From assembly GCF_007748115.1 (NCBI RefSeq), contig NZ_CP036289.1, positions 2,666,001 to 2,730,000 of the forward strand: a DNA stretch of 64,000 nt, read 5' to 3'. Shown one piece after another: positions 5,645 through 48,978 of the stretch. The translations under genes and the position numbers were made by a program. Under the pieces are notes generated by a model. It saw nothing but the letters and a program-made list of their open reading frames with translations, had not been told where the DNA came from and did not search any database. Each line of letters starts with the position of its first letter. The stretch's first letter is position 1. The DNA comes from Bremerella volcania. Its GTDB lineage: Bacteria > Planctomycetota > Planctomycetia > Pirellulales > Pirellulaceae.

Positions 5645-5660
5645 GTCATAAGTAAATGAA

Positions 5661-5768
5661 TCCGGCGATACCTACTTTCGCACTGGTGGGCACTATCATC
5701 GGCTGGTTGTGCTTAACTGCTGTGTTCGGAATGGGAACAGGTGTTTCCACAACCATATGGTCACCGGA
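5661..5768 (-). rRNA. rrf: 5S ribosomal RNA
   Basis: On the minus strand the 108-nt segment starts TCCGGTGACC and ends with the complementary CGCCGGA, closing helix I. The internal block around CCATTCCGAACACAGCAGTTAAG is the classic 5S signature. It lies about 150 nt downstream of 23S. Confidence 0.96.
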
Positions 5769-5770
5769 AA

Positions 5771-5803
5771 AAGCCTGACTGACGTGGGGGCCAAGTCAGG
5801 CTT
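5771..5803 (-). other. Hairpin in the 23S-5S spacer
   Basis: Perfect 10-bp inverted repeat (5771-5780 with 5794-5803) and a 13-base loop directly upstream of 5S. It is a likely RNA processing stem; there is no T-run, so a terminator is unlikely. Confidence 0.6.
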
Positions 5804-5921
5804 CATTTGGTTGGGTAGAGGTGTTTGCGTATTGGCAACACGTTCAATGTTTCGAGAACTTCGATTATTGTGAATCGCACTTGATGATTCAAGTCTGCTC
5901 AACGAGTGAGCGTTGAATATA

Positions 5922-8763
<2,842 letters not shown>

Positions 8764-9402
8764 ACAAATATTCAAAGCTCGCTTAGGGTTAGCACACCCA
8801 TACAAACTAAGAACAACCAAGCCATTTCGGACTACCTATTGTGACTGGCTTGTCTAAGAACCAGTCACTGAGATCCGATCTTGTAACGATTCACAATGCT
8901 GCGTGACCCAACTTACTTGCCAACCCTCTCAGGCTGACCATGCAAAAAGGCCCGACAGACATCGAGATTCTCTTTAAGAACGGCTATCACTCAAATCGAC
9001 ACTGCCCTGATTCCAGCCAAAGCTGAAAACCAAGAGCAACACTTTTGGTAATAACCATAACTCTATGAAATTGCATCGTTTATGTCGCAACAAAGCTTCT
9101 GCTGAGCTTACGGCTTGCCATAAGCAAACCCCAAACCCGACATCCACTTTGCTACGCAAATGCCATCTACCAACCAAATTGTCAAAGATCATTTCGACTC
9201 GGCTTGAAGGCCTAGTCGTCTTCCGCTGAGCGGAATGAAAAAGAGTTCAATGAACTCCGTTTCATTGCAGTCAGCCGAAGATGTTTCCCCGTGGGGAAGC
9301 GTCAAAGTTTACTCAGCAAGTTTGCTTTGTAAAGGGCCTCGCGAAAAAGTTTCGCGAGATTTTCTCGTGGCGGCAAATCGTATCGATTCTTAGCCTTGAA
9401 AG
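8764..9402 (-). other. Spacer between tRNA-Ala and 23S
   Basis: Untranslated 640-nt spacer of the rRNA transcript without a credible gene. It holds several short perfect hairpins: 8841-8868 (8-bp stem), 9221-9235 (6 bp), 9243-9257 (7 bp), 9285-9298 (6 bp) and 9338-9358 (9 bp with a 3-base loop). They probably serve rRNA processing or antitermination. Confidence 0.7.
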
Positions 9403-9475
9403 TGGAGCTGACAGGGATCGAACCTGCGACCCTCTGCTTGCAAAGCAGATGCTCTCCCAACTGAGCTACAGCCCC
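9403..9475 (-). tRNA. tRNA-Ala (TGC)
   Basis: Folds as a standard cloverleaf: acceptor GGGGCTG with CAGCTCC, including the G3:U70 pair that identifies alanine tRNA; anticodon loop TTTGCAA with anticodon TGC; T-arm GGTTCGATCC. CCA is not encoded. Second gene of the minus-strand rRNA transcript. Confidence 0.97.
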
Positions 9476-9523
9476 TTTTTCATGGGATCGACTACTCTAG
9501 GATAACGTCCCGGAGTCGTCTAG

Positions 9524-9597
9524 TGGGCGCACCAAGATTCGAACTTGGGACCTCGTCGTTATCAGCGACGCGCTCTAACCAACTGAGCTATGCGCCC
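9524..9597 (-). tRNA. tRNA-Ile (GAT)
   Basis: Acceptor GGGCGCA pairs with TGCGCCC; anticodon GAT in the loop CTGATAA; T-arm GTTCGAATC. CCA is not encoded. First gene of the transcript, 48 bp before tRNA-Ala. In a standard operon 16S would lie just upstream, but here a promoter does. Confidence 0.97.
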
Positions 9598-38889: not shown

Positions 38890-39302
38890 AAATCAGGCGG
38901 GAGAGAAAAAGGAAGGATTCAGGAGGGAAGGTGCTATCACCCATCATAGCGGCGAATGTGATTCGGTTTAAGCTCGAAATCGCGAGTGACCAAACGTGTC
39001 ATCAGCCTTGCTATCTTGTGCAGATGGGATGAAGGCCAAATAAGAGGTTGATAAAGTCCAAAAAAATTTGGATTCACTCGCGATAGAGAGCTTTGCTGCC
39101 ACAAGATCTAGTGTTGAAGCAGGGCTCGGATAGCTAAGTGTCGTGTTTTCAGGCACTTGGGGAGCGAGAATCCGCCCTTGCGGGATCACCCTGGGGACGC
39201 AGACAGCATTGGTTTGCTAGCGACCTGCGTGTGGAAAGATATGTCGAATGTTGGCCTTACCTATTGGCTAGCAATGAGTTAGGTCATGTGAAGATAATGT
39301 GG
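38890..39302. other. Intergenic region upstream of the nrdA promoter
   Basis: About 410 bp between divergent genes, without a credible gene. The short frames here do not resemble proteins. The regulatory elements are described separately. Confidence 0.5.
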
Positions 39303-39330
39303 TTGACGCGATCTGCTACCACGATATATT
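39303..39330 (+). promoter_or_regulatory. Possible nrdA promoter
   Basis: TTGACG (39303-39308), a 16-bp spacer and TATATT (39325-39330). The -10 lies within an NrdR-like box. The predicted leader is about 340 nt. Confidence 0.55.
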
Positions 39331-39334
39331 GGGC
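39319..39334 (+). promoter_or_regulatory. NrdR-like box overlapping the -10
   Basis: The 16-mer CCACGATATATTGGGC matches 12 of 16 positions of the NrdR consensus ACACAATATATTGTGT. A weaker, 9-of-16 match at 39287-39302 lies 32 bp upstream. Confidence 0.55.
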
Positions 39335-39394
39335 TCCCGTCGCTGAGAATGATTCAATTCGCCCCCAACATCTGGCGATAAATCATTTTTAGCG

Positions 39395-39441
39395 ACCCAG
39401 GATATTGTGCCTTGGTGATCCAGTGATACAATATCTTGTAG
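39395..39441 (+). promoter_or_regulatory. Pair of NrdR-like boxes
   Basis: ACCCAGGATATTGTGC (39395-39410) and ATACAATATCTTGTAG (39426-39441) each match about 12 of 16 positions of the NrdR consensus. They start 31 bp apart, the three-helical-turn spacing usual for this repressor. Confidence 0.68.
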
Positions 39442-42736: not shown

Positions 42737-43798
42737 ATGTCTACTCCAAGCCTCGGCTTCGATACCGAAATGACTGGAACGCAGCGCGTTAACGCCAGTG
42801 AAAAGCGTCTGATCAACGCCCACCAGGTTGACGTGAACCAACTGATGCCGCTGAAGTATCACTGGGCCTGGGAGCATTACCTTAATGGTTGCGCCAATCA
42901 CTGGATGCCTACCGAAGTTCCCATGACCAAGGACATTGAAACCTGGCGGAGCGACAAGCTGACCGAAGATGAACGTAAGGTCATCATGCGGAACCTCGGT
43001 TTCTTCTCCACCGCGGAAAGCCTGGTGGGTAACAACCTGGTGCTGGCCATCTTCAAGCATGTGACCAACGCCGAAGCTCGCCAGTACCTGCTGCGTCAGG
43101 CCTTTGAAGAAGCGATCCACTCGCATACGTTCCTGTACGTGGTGGAAAGCCTGGGCCTCAACGAAGGCGAAGTCTTCAACATGTATCACGAAGTCCCGGC
43201 GATCACCAAGAAGGACGAGTTCGAGATGAACTTGACCCGCGAAGTGCTCGACCCAGACTTCAAGACCGACTCGTACGAAGGAATTCAAACCTTCCTGAAG
43301 AACCTGATCGGTTATTACATCATCATGGAAGGCATCTTCTTCTATACCGGTTTCGTGATGGTGCTTTCGTTCCATCGGCGTAACTTGATGACCGGCATCG
43401 GCGAGCAGTTTCAGTACATCCTGCGTGACGAAACGGTTCACTTGAACTTTGGTATCGACCTGATCAACGGCATCAAGGAAGAGAACCCCGACGTCTGGAC
43501 CGAAGAGTTCCAGCAGTCGATCATCGACCTGATTCACGAAGCGGTCGAACTGGAAATCGCCTACGCTGCGGACTGCCTGCCCAACGGCATCCTCGGTCTG
43601 AACCGTGACCTGTTCCGCGATTACGTGCATCACATTGCTGATCGCCGCCTGGAACGTATCGGCTTGCCGAAGCAGTTCAACCAGTCGAACAACCCGTTCC
43701 CCTGGATGAGCGAAACGATGGACCTCGCCAAAGAAAAGAACTTCTTTGAAACGCGAGTCACCGAATACCAAAGCTCCAGCGGTCTCAACTGGGACTAG
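42737..43798 (+). CDS. nrdB: Ribonucleotide reductase beta subunit, class Ic type
   Basis: 353-residue radical-generating subunit. Predicted metal ligands are Glu94, Glu125, His128, Glu198, Glu232 and His235. The position of the usual radical Tyr (seven after Glu125) is Phe132, and the first ligand is Glu, not Asp. Those are the hallmarks of the chlamydial class Ic R2, and each ligand here is offset by exactly five residues from the Chlamydia trachomatis numbering (E89, E120, H123, F127, E193, E227, H230) as I recall it. A Mn/Fe-type cofactor without a tyrosyl radical is therefore likely. Tyr344 near the C terminus matches the radical-transfer Tyr. It lies 131 bp after nrdA. Confidence 0.95.
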
Positions 43799-45495: not shown

Positions 45496-45676
45496 AACTT
45501 TGCGTTGGCGCGAGGCTTCTGATAGTTTCAACGGAAACTAACCCCTCCTCGCGCGAGTCTCGCTACATGCCTCGCTTTCTACGCCAATTCGGACTGCGCA
45601 CCCTGCTGATCTTTTGCACGTTGGCGGCCGGGTGTTTCGGTCTGTGGCGGTGGCACATGACCTGGGTTGATCAGCA
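45496..45676 (+). repeat. Direct repeat, copy 1 (leader and 5' coding)
   Basis: About 180 bp repeated at 47254-47435: a 71-bp leader with few differences followed by 110 identical coding bases. The leader contains an inverted repeat GCGCGAGG (45508-45515) / CCTCGCGC (45547-45554). Confidence 0.85.
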
Positions 45677-47234
45677 GCGTGAGTTTGCCTCGCAGATCGC
45701 CGATGCAGGCGGTAATGTGCGCTGGAAAACTTGGGGGCCCCAGTGGATGCACAAGGCTTTTGGAAGCTTCTATTTCTCCGAAATCGTGGCCGTCGATCTG
45801 AATCACAAGCGAATCGAACATAAACACGTTGGACTTCTCAGGCAGCTACCGACGCTGGAAGAACTGTATCTGGCGGGAACCGATCTCCAGGGGCAAAGCC
45901 TAGTGGTGCTCGAAAACTTGCCCAAGCTTCGCAAGCTGGCTTTGTGGAACACGCGTCTTAAGAACGACGCCTTGCAGCATGTCGGCAAACTGAAAAAACT
46001 GGAGACACTCGATATTCATCGAACCGCGATGACCGAAGAGGGGCTAGTGCATCTGCGAAACCATCCCCGCTTGAAAGTCCTGCGCTACGACATGCCGCTC
46101 GGCGAAGTGGGCGTCGATCACCTTGCCACGATCGAGAACCTTGAACTGACCATGCTTACGGTCCACGGCGGATCAGAGAAAACGTTCCGGCAACTGCGCG
46201 ACCATTTCGAGATCCTGTCGCTTAAAATGCACTCCCCCGAGAACGATCAGTGGGCGAAGTACCTGGCTGGCCATCCCACCTTGGTCGCATTACAGATCAC
46301 CGATGCTCCGGTGCAAACGGATCAGTTTGCCGACCTTTTGTCACAGAACACGCTGACCACAATCAGGCTGGATAGAGTGCCGATTGACGATGAAACGCTA
46401 TCTGAGGTGCCGGGTGCTTTTCGGCTTAAGAGATTATCGCTACACGAAACCAACGTCACCGCGACGGGGCTGCTCACCTGCCTCGGCCCCTCGGCAACCG
46501 ATATTCAGATCAGGGATAGCTGGCTGAAGCTGTCTGACAGTAACGCAAAGCGGGAAGTGGACTGGATCGGCTCCATGACCGGCGAAGACCTGGCGGCTCT
46601 GGTCAACTGTCGTAAGCTGACGGCAATGACTTTCTTCTCGGTGAAATTCCGGGGTGAGATCGATTTCGCGTTTCTCCCTGAACTGAAATCACTCCAGCAC
46701 ATTACGATTGGGCATCAAGAGCATTACCCCGTCATGATGCATCTCGATTCATTGACCAAGTTGGAGTCCGTTGTCCTTTTTCCTTTCAATAATGCGACGC
46801 CTGATGAGTTGGCCGAGTTAGCATCGATCAAGTCATTGGAAAAACTAGCACTACCGCATTCCCCTATTTCCGATGAACAGTTGAAGGCCATCTGCACAAT
46901 CACGCAACTCAAGCAGCTGAACATTCAAGGCGCCAACATAACCGACGAAGGGATGAAGTCGATCGTCGAGCTGAAGAGCCTCGAAGAGCTTGATATTGCC
47001 GAGTGTCGTAAATTGACCGACCAGTCCCTGCTGTACGTCAGCCAATTGAAACAATTGCGGCGTCTTGATATCGCCGGAACAAACATCACCGACCAAGGCT
47101 TCAAGCATTTGCACGGAATGCCAAAACTCTTCGATATCCAAGTCGGTGGGACAAAACATACCCCGGAAGGATTTCGGCAGCTGTATAAATCGTTGCCGGT
47201 CAGCGAAGATCACCTCGAAGAGCACATCCCGTAA
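45567..47234 (+). CDS. Membrane-anchored leucine-rich-repeat protein
   Basis: 555 residues. The N terminus is a signal anchor (LRTLLIFCTLAAGCFGLWRW). The rest consists of LRR-like units such as LEELYLAGTDLQGQSL, LRKLALWNTRLKNDAL and LEELDIAECRKLTDQSL, mostly the cysteine-containing/F-box-like type common in planctomycetes. Repeats bind proteins; partners are unknown. It is one of two tandem paralogs and shares its first 36 codons identically with the second. Confidence 0.88.
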   Translation: MPRFLRQFGLRTLLIFCTLAAGCFGLWRWHMTWVDQQREFASQIADAGGNVRWKTWGPQWMHKAFGSFYFSEIVAVDLNHKRIEHKHVGLLRQLPTLEELYLAGTDLQGQSLVVLENLPKLRKLALWNTRLKNDALQHVGKLKKLETLDIHRTAMTEEGLVHLRNHPRLKVLRYDMPLGEVGVDHLATIENLELTMLTVHGGSEKTFRQLRDHFEILSLKMHSPENDQWAKYLAGHPTLVALQITDAPVQTDQFADLLSQNTLTTIRLDRVPIDDETLSEVPGAFRLKRLSLHETNVTATGLLTCLGPSATDIQIRDSWLKLSDSNAKREVDWIGSMTGEDLAALVNCRKLTAMTFFSVKFRGEIDFAFLPELKSLQHITIGHQEHYPVMMHLDSLTKLESVVLFPFNNATPDELAELASIKSLEKLALPHSPISDEQLKAICTITQLKQLNIQGANITDEGMKSIVELKSLEELDIAECRKLTDQSLLYVSQLKQLRRLDIAGTNITDQGFKHLHGMPKLFDIQVGGTKHTPEGFRQLYKSLPVSEDHLEEHIP

Positions 47235-47253: not shown

Positions 47254-47435
47254 AACTTTGCGTTGGCGCGAGGCTTCTGGTAGTTTCAACGGAAACCACT
47301 CCTCTCCTCGCGCGAGTCTCGCCATATGCCTCGCTTTCTACGCCAATTCGGACTGCGCACCCTGCTGATCTTTTGCACGTTGGCGGCCGGGTGTTTCGGT
47401 CTGTGGCGGTGGCACATGACCTGGGTTGATCAGCA
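47254..47435 (+). repeat. Direct repeat, copy 2 (leader and 5' coding)
   Basis: Second copy of the repeat at 45496-45676. The inverted repeat in the leader is kept (47266-47273 with 47306-47313). Confidence 0.85.
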
Positions 47436-48978
47436 ACAAGAGGTCGCGGCCCAGATCGCCGAGGCCAAGGGGGACGTTCGCTGGGGGACGTGGGGGCCGG
47501 AGTGGGTTCATCAACTTTTCGGCAGCTATTATTTCTCGAACATCGTCGCCGTCGACTGGCACCACAAGCGAATCAAGGACGAAGATCTGCAACTGCTTCG
47601 TAAGACGCCCACGCTGGAAGAGTTGTATATCCCTGGCACGCGAATCACGGACGAAAGCCTGACCGTGCTCGAGGACTTGCCCAGAATACGCAAGCTGGCT
47701 TTGTGGAATACGCGCCTCACCAATAAAACGCTCGAGCAGGTAGGCAAGCTCAAGCGATTGGAAGTGCTCGATATTCATCGCACCAAAATGGACGAAACGG
47801 GACTGGTGCATCTGCGAGACCATCCCCGTCTGCAGATCTTGCGGCACGATTTGACGATGACCGACGTCGGTATCGACCATCTGGCTTCCATCCCCAATGT
47901 CTCGGTGGAATGGTTGGTGACCCAAGAGCTTGGTTTCGAAAGCTTCTGGCTGCTGCGTGATAAGATCAGCGTCGAGCGTCTTTACGTTTCTCGCCCGGTG
48001 TACTCAGGGTGGGCAACGTATCTGACTGGGCATCCTACCCTTGTCTCGCTTGAAGTCACGGACGCCCCGATGACCGACTTGGAGCTAGAGTCACTGATTG
48101 CGGCCAATACTCTGGAAAACTTGGAACTCACCAACGTACCGGTCGGAGACGCAGGCATCGCGAATGTACCGTACGCTTCGCGTCTGAAATCGCTCCGGTT
48201 TTCCCATACCAATGTGACGCCGGAAGGATTTCTGCTGACTTTTGGGCAGTTCCCCAGAAACGTGGTCATACTCAAGGATTGGATTCGTCTCAACAATGGA
48301 ACGAACGGGCAGAGTGTTGACTGGATGGGGGCACTTAGCGCGAAGGACCTGGAAGCTCTGAAGTATTGCCGCAACGCGAAGTCCCTGACTTTCGACACCA
48401 ACCAACTCGAGGGTATGAACTATCAGTGGCTGGAGATGCTTCAGGAACTCACGTACCTGCGCGTCGATTACTTCGGCAACGACCAGATGCTACGGCACGT
48501 TGCGTCACTACAAGACCTGCAATATCTCGACCTGGCAGGAGCGAAGAACGTGACGGCCGATGGATTGCAGGCGATCGTGCCGCTGGGCAAGCTCACGAAC
48601 CTGAACCTGCGCAGCGCCGAGGTTTCCGACGAGGCGTTGGAAGTGATTGGTCAGATGAAACAGTTGGAAATGCTCAATATTGCGGGATCCAACGTGACCG
48701 ACGATGGCCTTCGTCATCTTACCGGCCTGCAAAAGCTTGTCGTGATTCATCTTTCCGCTTGCAAGAATCTTACCGACGATGCGCTCAAGTCGGTCGGCCA
48801 GCTTAGGAGCTTGCAGTACCTGCATGCCCAGGGAACGCAGTTTACGGACGAGGGGCTCAAGCACTTGCACGGCATGCCCTTTCTCTCGAATGTAAGTTTG
48901 CTGGGCTCGAAACATACCAGTCACGGCGTCCGCCAACTGCGCGATTCGCTTCTGTTCAAAGGGGCGAACATCTATTAG
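47326..48978 (+). CDS. Membrane-anchored leucine-rich-repeat protein, paralog
   Basis: 550 residues. Same signal anchor as the preceding gene, with an identical first 36 codons, then a clearly diverged but collinear body of LRR units (LEELYIPGTRITDESL, LRSLQYLHAQGTQFTDEGL). The tandem pair arose by duplication, and the sharp change from identity to divergence suggests later gene conversion of the 5' end or constraint on it. Localised at the cytoplasmic membrane facing out, by inference from the anchor. Confidence 0.88.
   Translation: MPRFLRQFGLRTLLIFCTLAAGCFGLWRWHMTWVDQQQEVAAQIAEAKGDVRWGTWGPEWVHQLFGSYYFSNIVAVDWHHKRIKDEDLQLLRKTPTLEELYIPGTRITDESLTVLEDLPRIRKLALWNTRLTNKTLEQVGKLKRLEVLDIHRTKMDETGLVHLRDHPRLQILRHDLTMTDVGIDHLASIPNVSVEWLVTQELGFESFWLLRDKISVERLYVSRPVYSGWATYLTGHPTLVSLEVTDAPMTDLELESLIAANTLENLELTNVPVGDAGIANVPYASRLKSLRFSHTNVTPEGFLLTFGQFPRNVVILKDWIRLNNGTNGQSVDWMGALSAKDLEALKYCRNAKSLTFDTNQLEGMNYQWLEMLQELTYLRVDYFGNDQMLRHVASLQDLQYLDLAGAKNVTADGLQAIVPLGKLTNLNLRSAEVSDEALEVIGQMKQLEMLNIAGSNVTDDGLRHLTGLQKLVVIHLSACKNLTDDALKSVGQLRSLQYLHAQGTQFTDEGLKHLHGMPFLSNVSLLGSKHTSHGVRQLRDSLLFKGANIY

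Follow-up and report, generated by a model that had tools for sequence, protein, structure and literature searches.

Bremerella volcania very probably depends on a class Ic ribonucleotide reductase (RNR), encoded by nrdA-nrdB, in which a Mn/Fe center would take the place of the tyrosyl radical and which is the cell's only detected reductive source of deoxynucleotides. The two genes lie in a 64,000-nt stretch of DNA, here called the window (assembly GCF_007748115.1, contig NZ_CP036289.1, forward strand, positions 2,666,001 to 2,730,000). The nrdB product scored 620 bits against the NCBIfam model NF005550, whose cut-off is 309, so the match is not due to chance. In a phmmer search of the PDB, the top match was the R2 subunit of Chlamydia trachomatis (R2c) at 588 bits, followed by 6y2n at 473 and yeast R2 at 146. 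NrdB is 73% identical to C. trachomatis R2c (PDB 1syy; 246 of 336 positions). In that alignment, residue 16 of NrdB faces chain residue 11, and no gap occurs until beyond residue 300, so that an offset of five is constant at all six ligands and at Phe132. An offset of exactly five had been stated in the initial annotation of this DNA, and printed residue numbers agree with it: E89, E193, and E227 of the chlamydial protein (PMC11883743) match E94, E198, and E232 here, and W51, F197, and Y222 (PMC4118035) match W56, F202, and Y227.

Table 1. Features of the nrdA-nrdB region, in window positions
Feature	Position	Strand	Basis or remark
NrdR-box-like site upstream of nrdA	39099-39114		Motif search
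NrdR-box-like site upstream of nrdA	39319-39334	-	3 mismatches; almost unchanged across nine sequences from two genera
Two degenerate NrdR-box-like sites, 31 bp apart	39395-39410, 39426-39441	+	By eye, 4 mismatches each
nrdA, class I catalytic subunit, 975 aa	39678-42605	+	NF005544, 1460 bits (cut-off 965); 131 bp before nrdB
nrdB, class Ic-type R2 radical-generating subunit	42737-43798	+	353 aa then stop, by translation
Glu94 codon, first carboxylate ligand, where class Ia/Ib have Asp	43016-43018	+	Alignment; C. trachomatis Glu89
Span holding ligands Glu125, His128, Glu198, Glu232, and His235	43109-43441	+	Each invariant in 203/203 aligned rows
Glu125 codon, ligand	43109-43111	+	Read from DNA
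His128 codon, ligand	43118-43120	+	Read from DNA
Phe132 codon, at the radical Tyr position (Phe127 in C. trachomatis)	43130-43132	+	Alignment, 2ani
Tyr134 codon	43136-43138	+	Read from DNA
Glu198 codon, ligand	43328-43330	+	Read from DNA
Glu232 codon, ligand	43430-43432	+	Read from DNA
His235 codon, ligand	43439-43441	+	Read from DNA
Tyr344 codon, conserved C-terminal Tyr	43766-43768	+	Invariant in 203/203 rows

The six metal ligands and the Phe in the slot of the radical Tyr had been proposed in the same annotation, and both stood up to translation and alignment with 1syy; PDB 2ani, titled as an F127Y mutant, has Tyr where 1syy has Phe, which is the slot of Phe132. NrdB accordingly carries Glu as its first carboxylate ligand, a redox-inert residue at the position of the radical Tyr, a C-terminal Tyr, and a partner NrdA encoded upstream. 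Trp56, Phe202, Asp231, and Tyr344 are, like the five ligands other than Glu94, each invariant in all 203 aligned R2 rows, and position 227 is Tyr in 191 of them. Assignment to class Ia or Ib, which have an Asp ligand and a radical Tyr, is rejected on Glu94 and Phe132. In class Ie R2 proteins the metal ligands are lost; NrdB has all six and no Tyr at position 132, and class Ie is likewise rejected. Class Ie R2 is described as metal free, with a DOPA radical at the Tyr (PMC9669993). The Phe132 codon also rejects class Id, since a Phe/Glu pairing denotes class Ic and a Tyr/Glu pairing class Id (PMC8463856). The C-terminal Tyr is conserved in R2c and standard R2 alike (PMC3824934).

The likeness to the C. 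trachomatis enzyme (PDB 1syy, 4d8f, and 4m1i) extends to the second-shell Trp, Tyr, and Phe and to the nrdA-nrdB gene order (PMC3019208). The NrdA encoded here has an all-alpha domain (PF00317), a barrel domain (PF02867), and ATP-cones (PF03477) in two stretches, compared with three reported in C. trachomatis (PMC9669993), and its host, unlike C. trachomatis, appears to be of a free-living type. A predicted structure of NrdB (AlphaFold2, 39 rows) had a mean pLDDT of 76.6 and a pTM of 0.78, with pLDDT below 50 at residues 1 to 15, 25 to 44, 54 to 58, and 330 to 353. Its 14 best PDB fold matches were thirteen C. trachomatis R2c chains and 6y2n (query TM, 0.73 to 0.77; R2c chains, 0.74 to 0.77), but the rmsd of 9.8 to 14.9 Å indicates that the model is partly misplaced, and it adds little to the sequence evidence.

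The host genome (6,496,182 bases on one contig, 99.49% complete) was searched for other RNRs. It contains a single PF00268 (R2) match, which is nrdB, and a single PF02867 match, which is nrdA and the only class I or II catalytic subunit. No NRDD match indicative of class III was found in the genome, and its single match to the class II model NrdJ_Z was nrdA itself, at 389.7 bits and below the cut-off of 399.95. We conclude that nrdA-nrdB is the only RNR found in this genome. One B12-binding domain is left, within a 1272-residue frame that we take to be MetH-sized. The residue pair, the nearest homologue, the paired NrdA, and the finding of no other RNR together support, at the level of sequence, both the membership of NrdB in class Ic and the earlier proposal that this planctomycete would make deoxynucleotides without a tyrosyl radical.

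Searches upstream of nrdA for cobalamin riboswitches or other Rfam RNAs yielded none at E values up to 1, and no RNA upstream of nrdA reached an Rfam gathering score in the window. The rRNA region of the window (5660-9597, minus strand) contains 23S and 5S rRNA and two tRNAs; no 16S gene was reported in the window, and the 16S rRNA is probably unlinked. A gene for NrdR lies elsewhere in the genome. Using what we take to be the NrdR-box consensus, we observed three matches at two places, both upstream of nrdA; as many matches were obtained in 8 of 100 window shuffles, so the count alone is weak. The stretch around the three sites from 39319 to 39441 shows good conservation across nine sequences from two genera.

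This type of R2 is patchy among planctomycetes. An R2 match was present in 69 of 392 Planctomycetota genomes, and 24 of the 392 had the window type at at least 69% identity, all 24 reading Glu/Phe at positions 94 and 132. Relatives at 57 to 61% identity occurred in 7 of the 392 genomes, and the six that were read were all Asp/Tyr. Within the host's taxonomic class, the NF005550 cut-off was exceeded in 29 of 148 genomes and the class II cut-off in 123. A class II match over the cut-off was lacking in 20 of the 29 class Ic-type carriers and in 5 of the 119 noncarriers, although many of the 148 genomes are drafts and the absence of class II may be a gap. The nine carriers with both the R2 type and class II were G121, G339, G421, G436, G369, G105, G181, G299, and G488, and the six sampled genomes of the host's own genus were all class Ic only. 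In this host the class Ic enzyme seems to have fully replaced the vitamin B12-dependent enzyme of most sampled relatives. In two genomes the genes are separated: in G361, a distance of over 1 Mb on a single contig lies between nrdA (L206) and nrdB (L023), and G464 has the two genes on different contigs. Outside the Planctomycetota, R2 matches were found in 139 of 151 Chlamydiota genomes and in 92 of 288 Verrucomicrobiota genomes (at least 68% identity in 116, one of them as two fragments, and in 12, respectively). The best 80 of 578 relatives also include records of the same type from Chloroflexota, Thermomicrobiota, Latescibacterota, Verrucomicrobiota, Rubrobacter, and Clostridiales.

Positions 94 and 132 vary strictly together. 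The 203 aligned R2 rows (199 loci, the window gene, and three PDB chains, with L001 to L003, which are the window gene itself, left out of all counts) read Glu/Phe in 123 cases, Glu/Leu in 25, and Asp/Tyr in 55, with no mixed rows; put differently, all 148 rows with Glu94 have Phe or Leu at position 132, and all 55 with Asp have Tyr. Some rows represent the same gene twice, which is covered by clustering at 80% (54 rows; Glu/Phe, 27; Glu/Leu, 9; Asp/Tyr, 18). The 110 close rows divide into 68, 1, and 41. The Asp/Tyr sister enzymes resemble NrdB in identity (57 to 64%) and in having nrdA upstream on the same strand where this was seen, but they differ in Asp94 and Tyr132, and a tyrosyl radical is expected in them; they are probably the NrdAz clade of PMC9669993. 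A distinct R2 group, formed by L170 to L187 (Verrucomicrobiota), L113 to L116 (Planctomycetota), and L197 and L198 (Chlamydiota), shares Glu as the first ligand and the lack of Tyr in the radical slot but has Leu there in place of Phe (24 of 24 rows). This group is 41 to 46% identical to the window NrdB (34% for L198), its nrdB comes ahead of nrdA in the ten loci for which flanks were retrieved, and it is possibly another metal-centered RNR group.

PDB 6y2n, 60% identical to NrdB, carries the same Glu/Phe pair and belongs, in the trees that include it, to a second Glu/Phe group made up of Actinomycetota, Alphaproteobacteria, and two gammaproteobacteria. Unlike the window gene, this group lies among the Asp/Tyr enzymes: it was inside the Asp/Tyr group on six of six trees, with high bootstrap support on three of them, and it occupied two places on NrdA-only trees. 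Its Glu/Phe pair may therefore be a separate change. The Glu/Phe pair had been taken to define chlamydial R2c; it is indeed present here, but the second group shows that it is not confined to one chlamydial lineage.

Trees were built from hand-picked rows (93 for R2 and 75, both out of the 203, and another set of 72), with positions 94 and 132 removed before each R2 or NrdA+NrdB tree. A 66-row NrdA+NrdB tree comprised the 72 minus L039 and L057, which are long, and L066, L108, L222, and L216, taken as near-copies; a further tree left out thirteen of the 72. One side of the 66-row tree held 33 Glu/Phe or Glu/Leu rows, and the other held G369 (Glu/Phe, from the host's order), the Asp/Tyr rows, and the second Glu/Phe group. 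Every tree required at least two changes of the Glu/Phe pair, with mixed AU support. A single Asp/Tyr clade was not rejected on R2 (p = 0.30, or 0.235 without L058 in the group) or on NrdA+NrdB (p = 0.11) and was rejected on NrdA alone only (p = 0.028); the NrdA-only data also split the second Glu/Phe group, and a single clade for it was not rejected (p = 0.063). On the best rooted NrdA+NrdB tree, an equal-rates model had an advantage of 1.7 log units over one allowing loss only, whereas loss only was better by 1.8 log units on the NrdA-only tree and better on 36 of the 40 bootstrap trees sampled, which may lack full branch lengths. Since these comparisons disagree between trees, a re-gain of the Tyr site is not upheld. 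It is unlikely that the subfamily switched repeatedly between Asp/Tyr and Glu/non-Tyr, both residues together, with the Tyr of the proteobacterial and planctomycete sister enzymes perhaps re-gained from a Mn/Fe-type ancestor rather than primitive. Class Ic-like and Tyr enzymes are mixed in NrdAz, and class Ic-like enzymes occur also in NrdAq (PMC9669993); Phe variants and their transfer have been described in haloarchaea (PMC3019208), and polyphyly has been debated (PMC3824934).

The initial annotation had suggested inheritance or transfer within the PVC superphylum, to which the Chlamydiae also belong. In the 93-row R2 tree, the window gene fell in a set of 11 planctomycete rows and one Chlamydiota genome (100/97), around which the rows from Chlamydiae, Verrucomicrobia, Latescibacterota, and Chloroflexota were poorly resolved; other planctomycetes were its closest kin both in this clade and among the best 80 of the 578 relatives. 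That the gene came to planctomycetes directly from Chlamydiae, or was inherited exclusively with them, is distinctly unlikely. The type is common in Chlamydiota, as noted above, and a PVC core of 26 NrdA+NrdB rows, chosen after the tree had been seen, was not rejected (p = 0.28). Planctomycetes and Chlamydiae as one group, however, were rejected on R2 (p = 0.00011), and the planctomycete core with Chlamydiae was borderline on NrdA+NrdB (p = 0.058) with the outlying planctomycete rows L207 and L208 left out. All PVC rows as one group were rejected as well, both on R2 (Glu/Phe rows; p = 0.005) and on NrdA+NrdB (p = 1.8e-6). The R2 groups were named by taxonomy; the core groups omit L207 and L208 and were hence named after the tree was seen, and L048 and L049, titled only "bacterium," were counted as PVC in the NrdA+NrdB AU tests, the tree having put them in the chlamydial clade. 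The patchiness of the type in the host's class also speaks against such an origin, as does the reconstruction in PMC9816063, which places class Ic in the last common ancestor of the Chlamydiae and, for the older Verrucomicrobia-Chlamydiae ancestor, names class III rather than class Ic. From the AU results on PVC groups, a shared PVC core of class Ic genes is possible, an exclusive planctomycete-Chlamydiae kinship is not favored, and some transfer of class Ic genes is likely. The PVC suggestion is thus weakly served, keeping the reduced core but not the planctomycete-Chlamydiae grouping on R2.

Several individual loci had unusual placements. In both the NrdA trees and the combined ones, the Glu/Phe nrdAB of G369 (L207/L026) was placed next to or within the Asp/Tyr enzymes, away from the other planctomycete class Ic genes; this genome also carries class II. 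The nrdAB of the Chlamydiota genome G535 (L215/L194) grouped with the planctomycete clade, possibly reflecting transfer between Chlamydiota and planctomycetes. Another Chlamydiota genome, G564, has a second R2 (L192) that is 61% identical to the window NrdB and has a very long branch; it was assigned to the second Glu/Phe group in the 93-row R2 tree but went to a long branch elsewhere. The Asp/Tyr nrdAB of L075, titled a Klebsiella pneumoniae MAG, grouped with environmental gammaproteobacteria, and the record name may be wrong.

With regard to mechanism, the ligands are presumably arranged as in other R2 proteins, Glu94, Glu125, and His128 forming site 1 and Glu198, Glu232, and His235 forming site 2. 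By analogy with C. trachomatis R2c, we infer a Mn/Fe content for NrdB, with Mn binding at site 1 and Fe at site 2. Reaction of this center with O2 would yield Mn(IV)/Fe(III), and the metal center rather than a tyrosyl radical would draw an electron over Trp56 and Tyr344 to form the cysteine radical in the NrdA active site. As in other RNRs, the ATP-cones of NrdA probably act as the switch for overall activity, with NrdR as the probable repressor of the nrdA-nrdB operon. A metal-centered R2 that likewise lacks a Tyr radical but in the cell holds a different pair of metals (Fe/Fe or Mn/Mn) is highly unlikely: the metals do not follow from the ligands alone, and R2c of C. trachomatis can take Fe/Fe or Mn at both sites, but that protein, 73% identical to NrdB, is highly active with Mn/Fe only (PMC4118035).

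Tyr134, two residues from Phe132, is an extremely improbable site of a stable radical, as would be any other Tyr. Named beforehand as the residue that could overturn the class Ic reading, it proved common to both kinds of enzyme: it stands beside Tyr132 in 41 of 55 Asp/Tyr rows and is rejected on that ground. The corresponding residue of C. trachomatis R2c is also Tyr, and the chlamydial Glu/Phe gene L043 has His there, one of two such rows, the second (L151) presumably being the same gene. We give next to no credence to NrdB being an R2-like ligand-binding oxidase (R2lox) rather than an RNR subunit, for although R2lox also has a Mn/Fe center and all-Glu carboxylates (PMC4118035), Tyr344 is kept, nrdA adjoins nrdB, five R2lox models score 43 to 59 bits against cut-offs of 194 to 346, and NrdB has Phe202 where R2lox has Ala (PMC4118035).

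The class Ic kind of RNR is known; what the Mn/Fe-type reading of nrdA-nrdB adds is a planctomycete example in which a class Ic enzyme is the only RNR found in the cell, and a case of such an enzyme standing in for a cobalamin enzyme, as the 20 carriers in the host's class without a class II match over the cut-off suggest. How class Ic-only organisms manage their metal supply is a question raised in PMC4118035, and a class Ic-only planctomycete with class II-only or dual relatives would allow it to be tested. The strict 94/132 pairing across relatives about 60% identical likewise provides natural pairs for studying the switch between a tyrosyl and a metal-centered oxidant. In open-licence literature, we found no report of a class Ic RNR in Planctomycetes, the matches concerning chlamydial ancestors or another planctomycete enzyme, and none of R2c in Verrucomicrobia; among the matches listed there was no mention of Blastopirellula or Pirellula. 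Some planctomycete strain papers mention class II RNR, and a planctomycete R2c may well be included in the 2010 R2c sequence survey cited by PMC4118035.

Two further features were observed. The NrdA frames of L058, L060, and L109 are 1176 to 1268 residues long, with the best match ending at query residue 586, and perhaps contain inteins or other inserts. Downstream of nrdB, two tandem open reading frames on the plus strand (45567-47234 and 47326-48978; 555 and 550 residues) share an identical N-terminal stretch, seem to contain leucine-rich repeats, and apparently arose by duplication.
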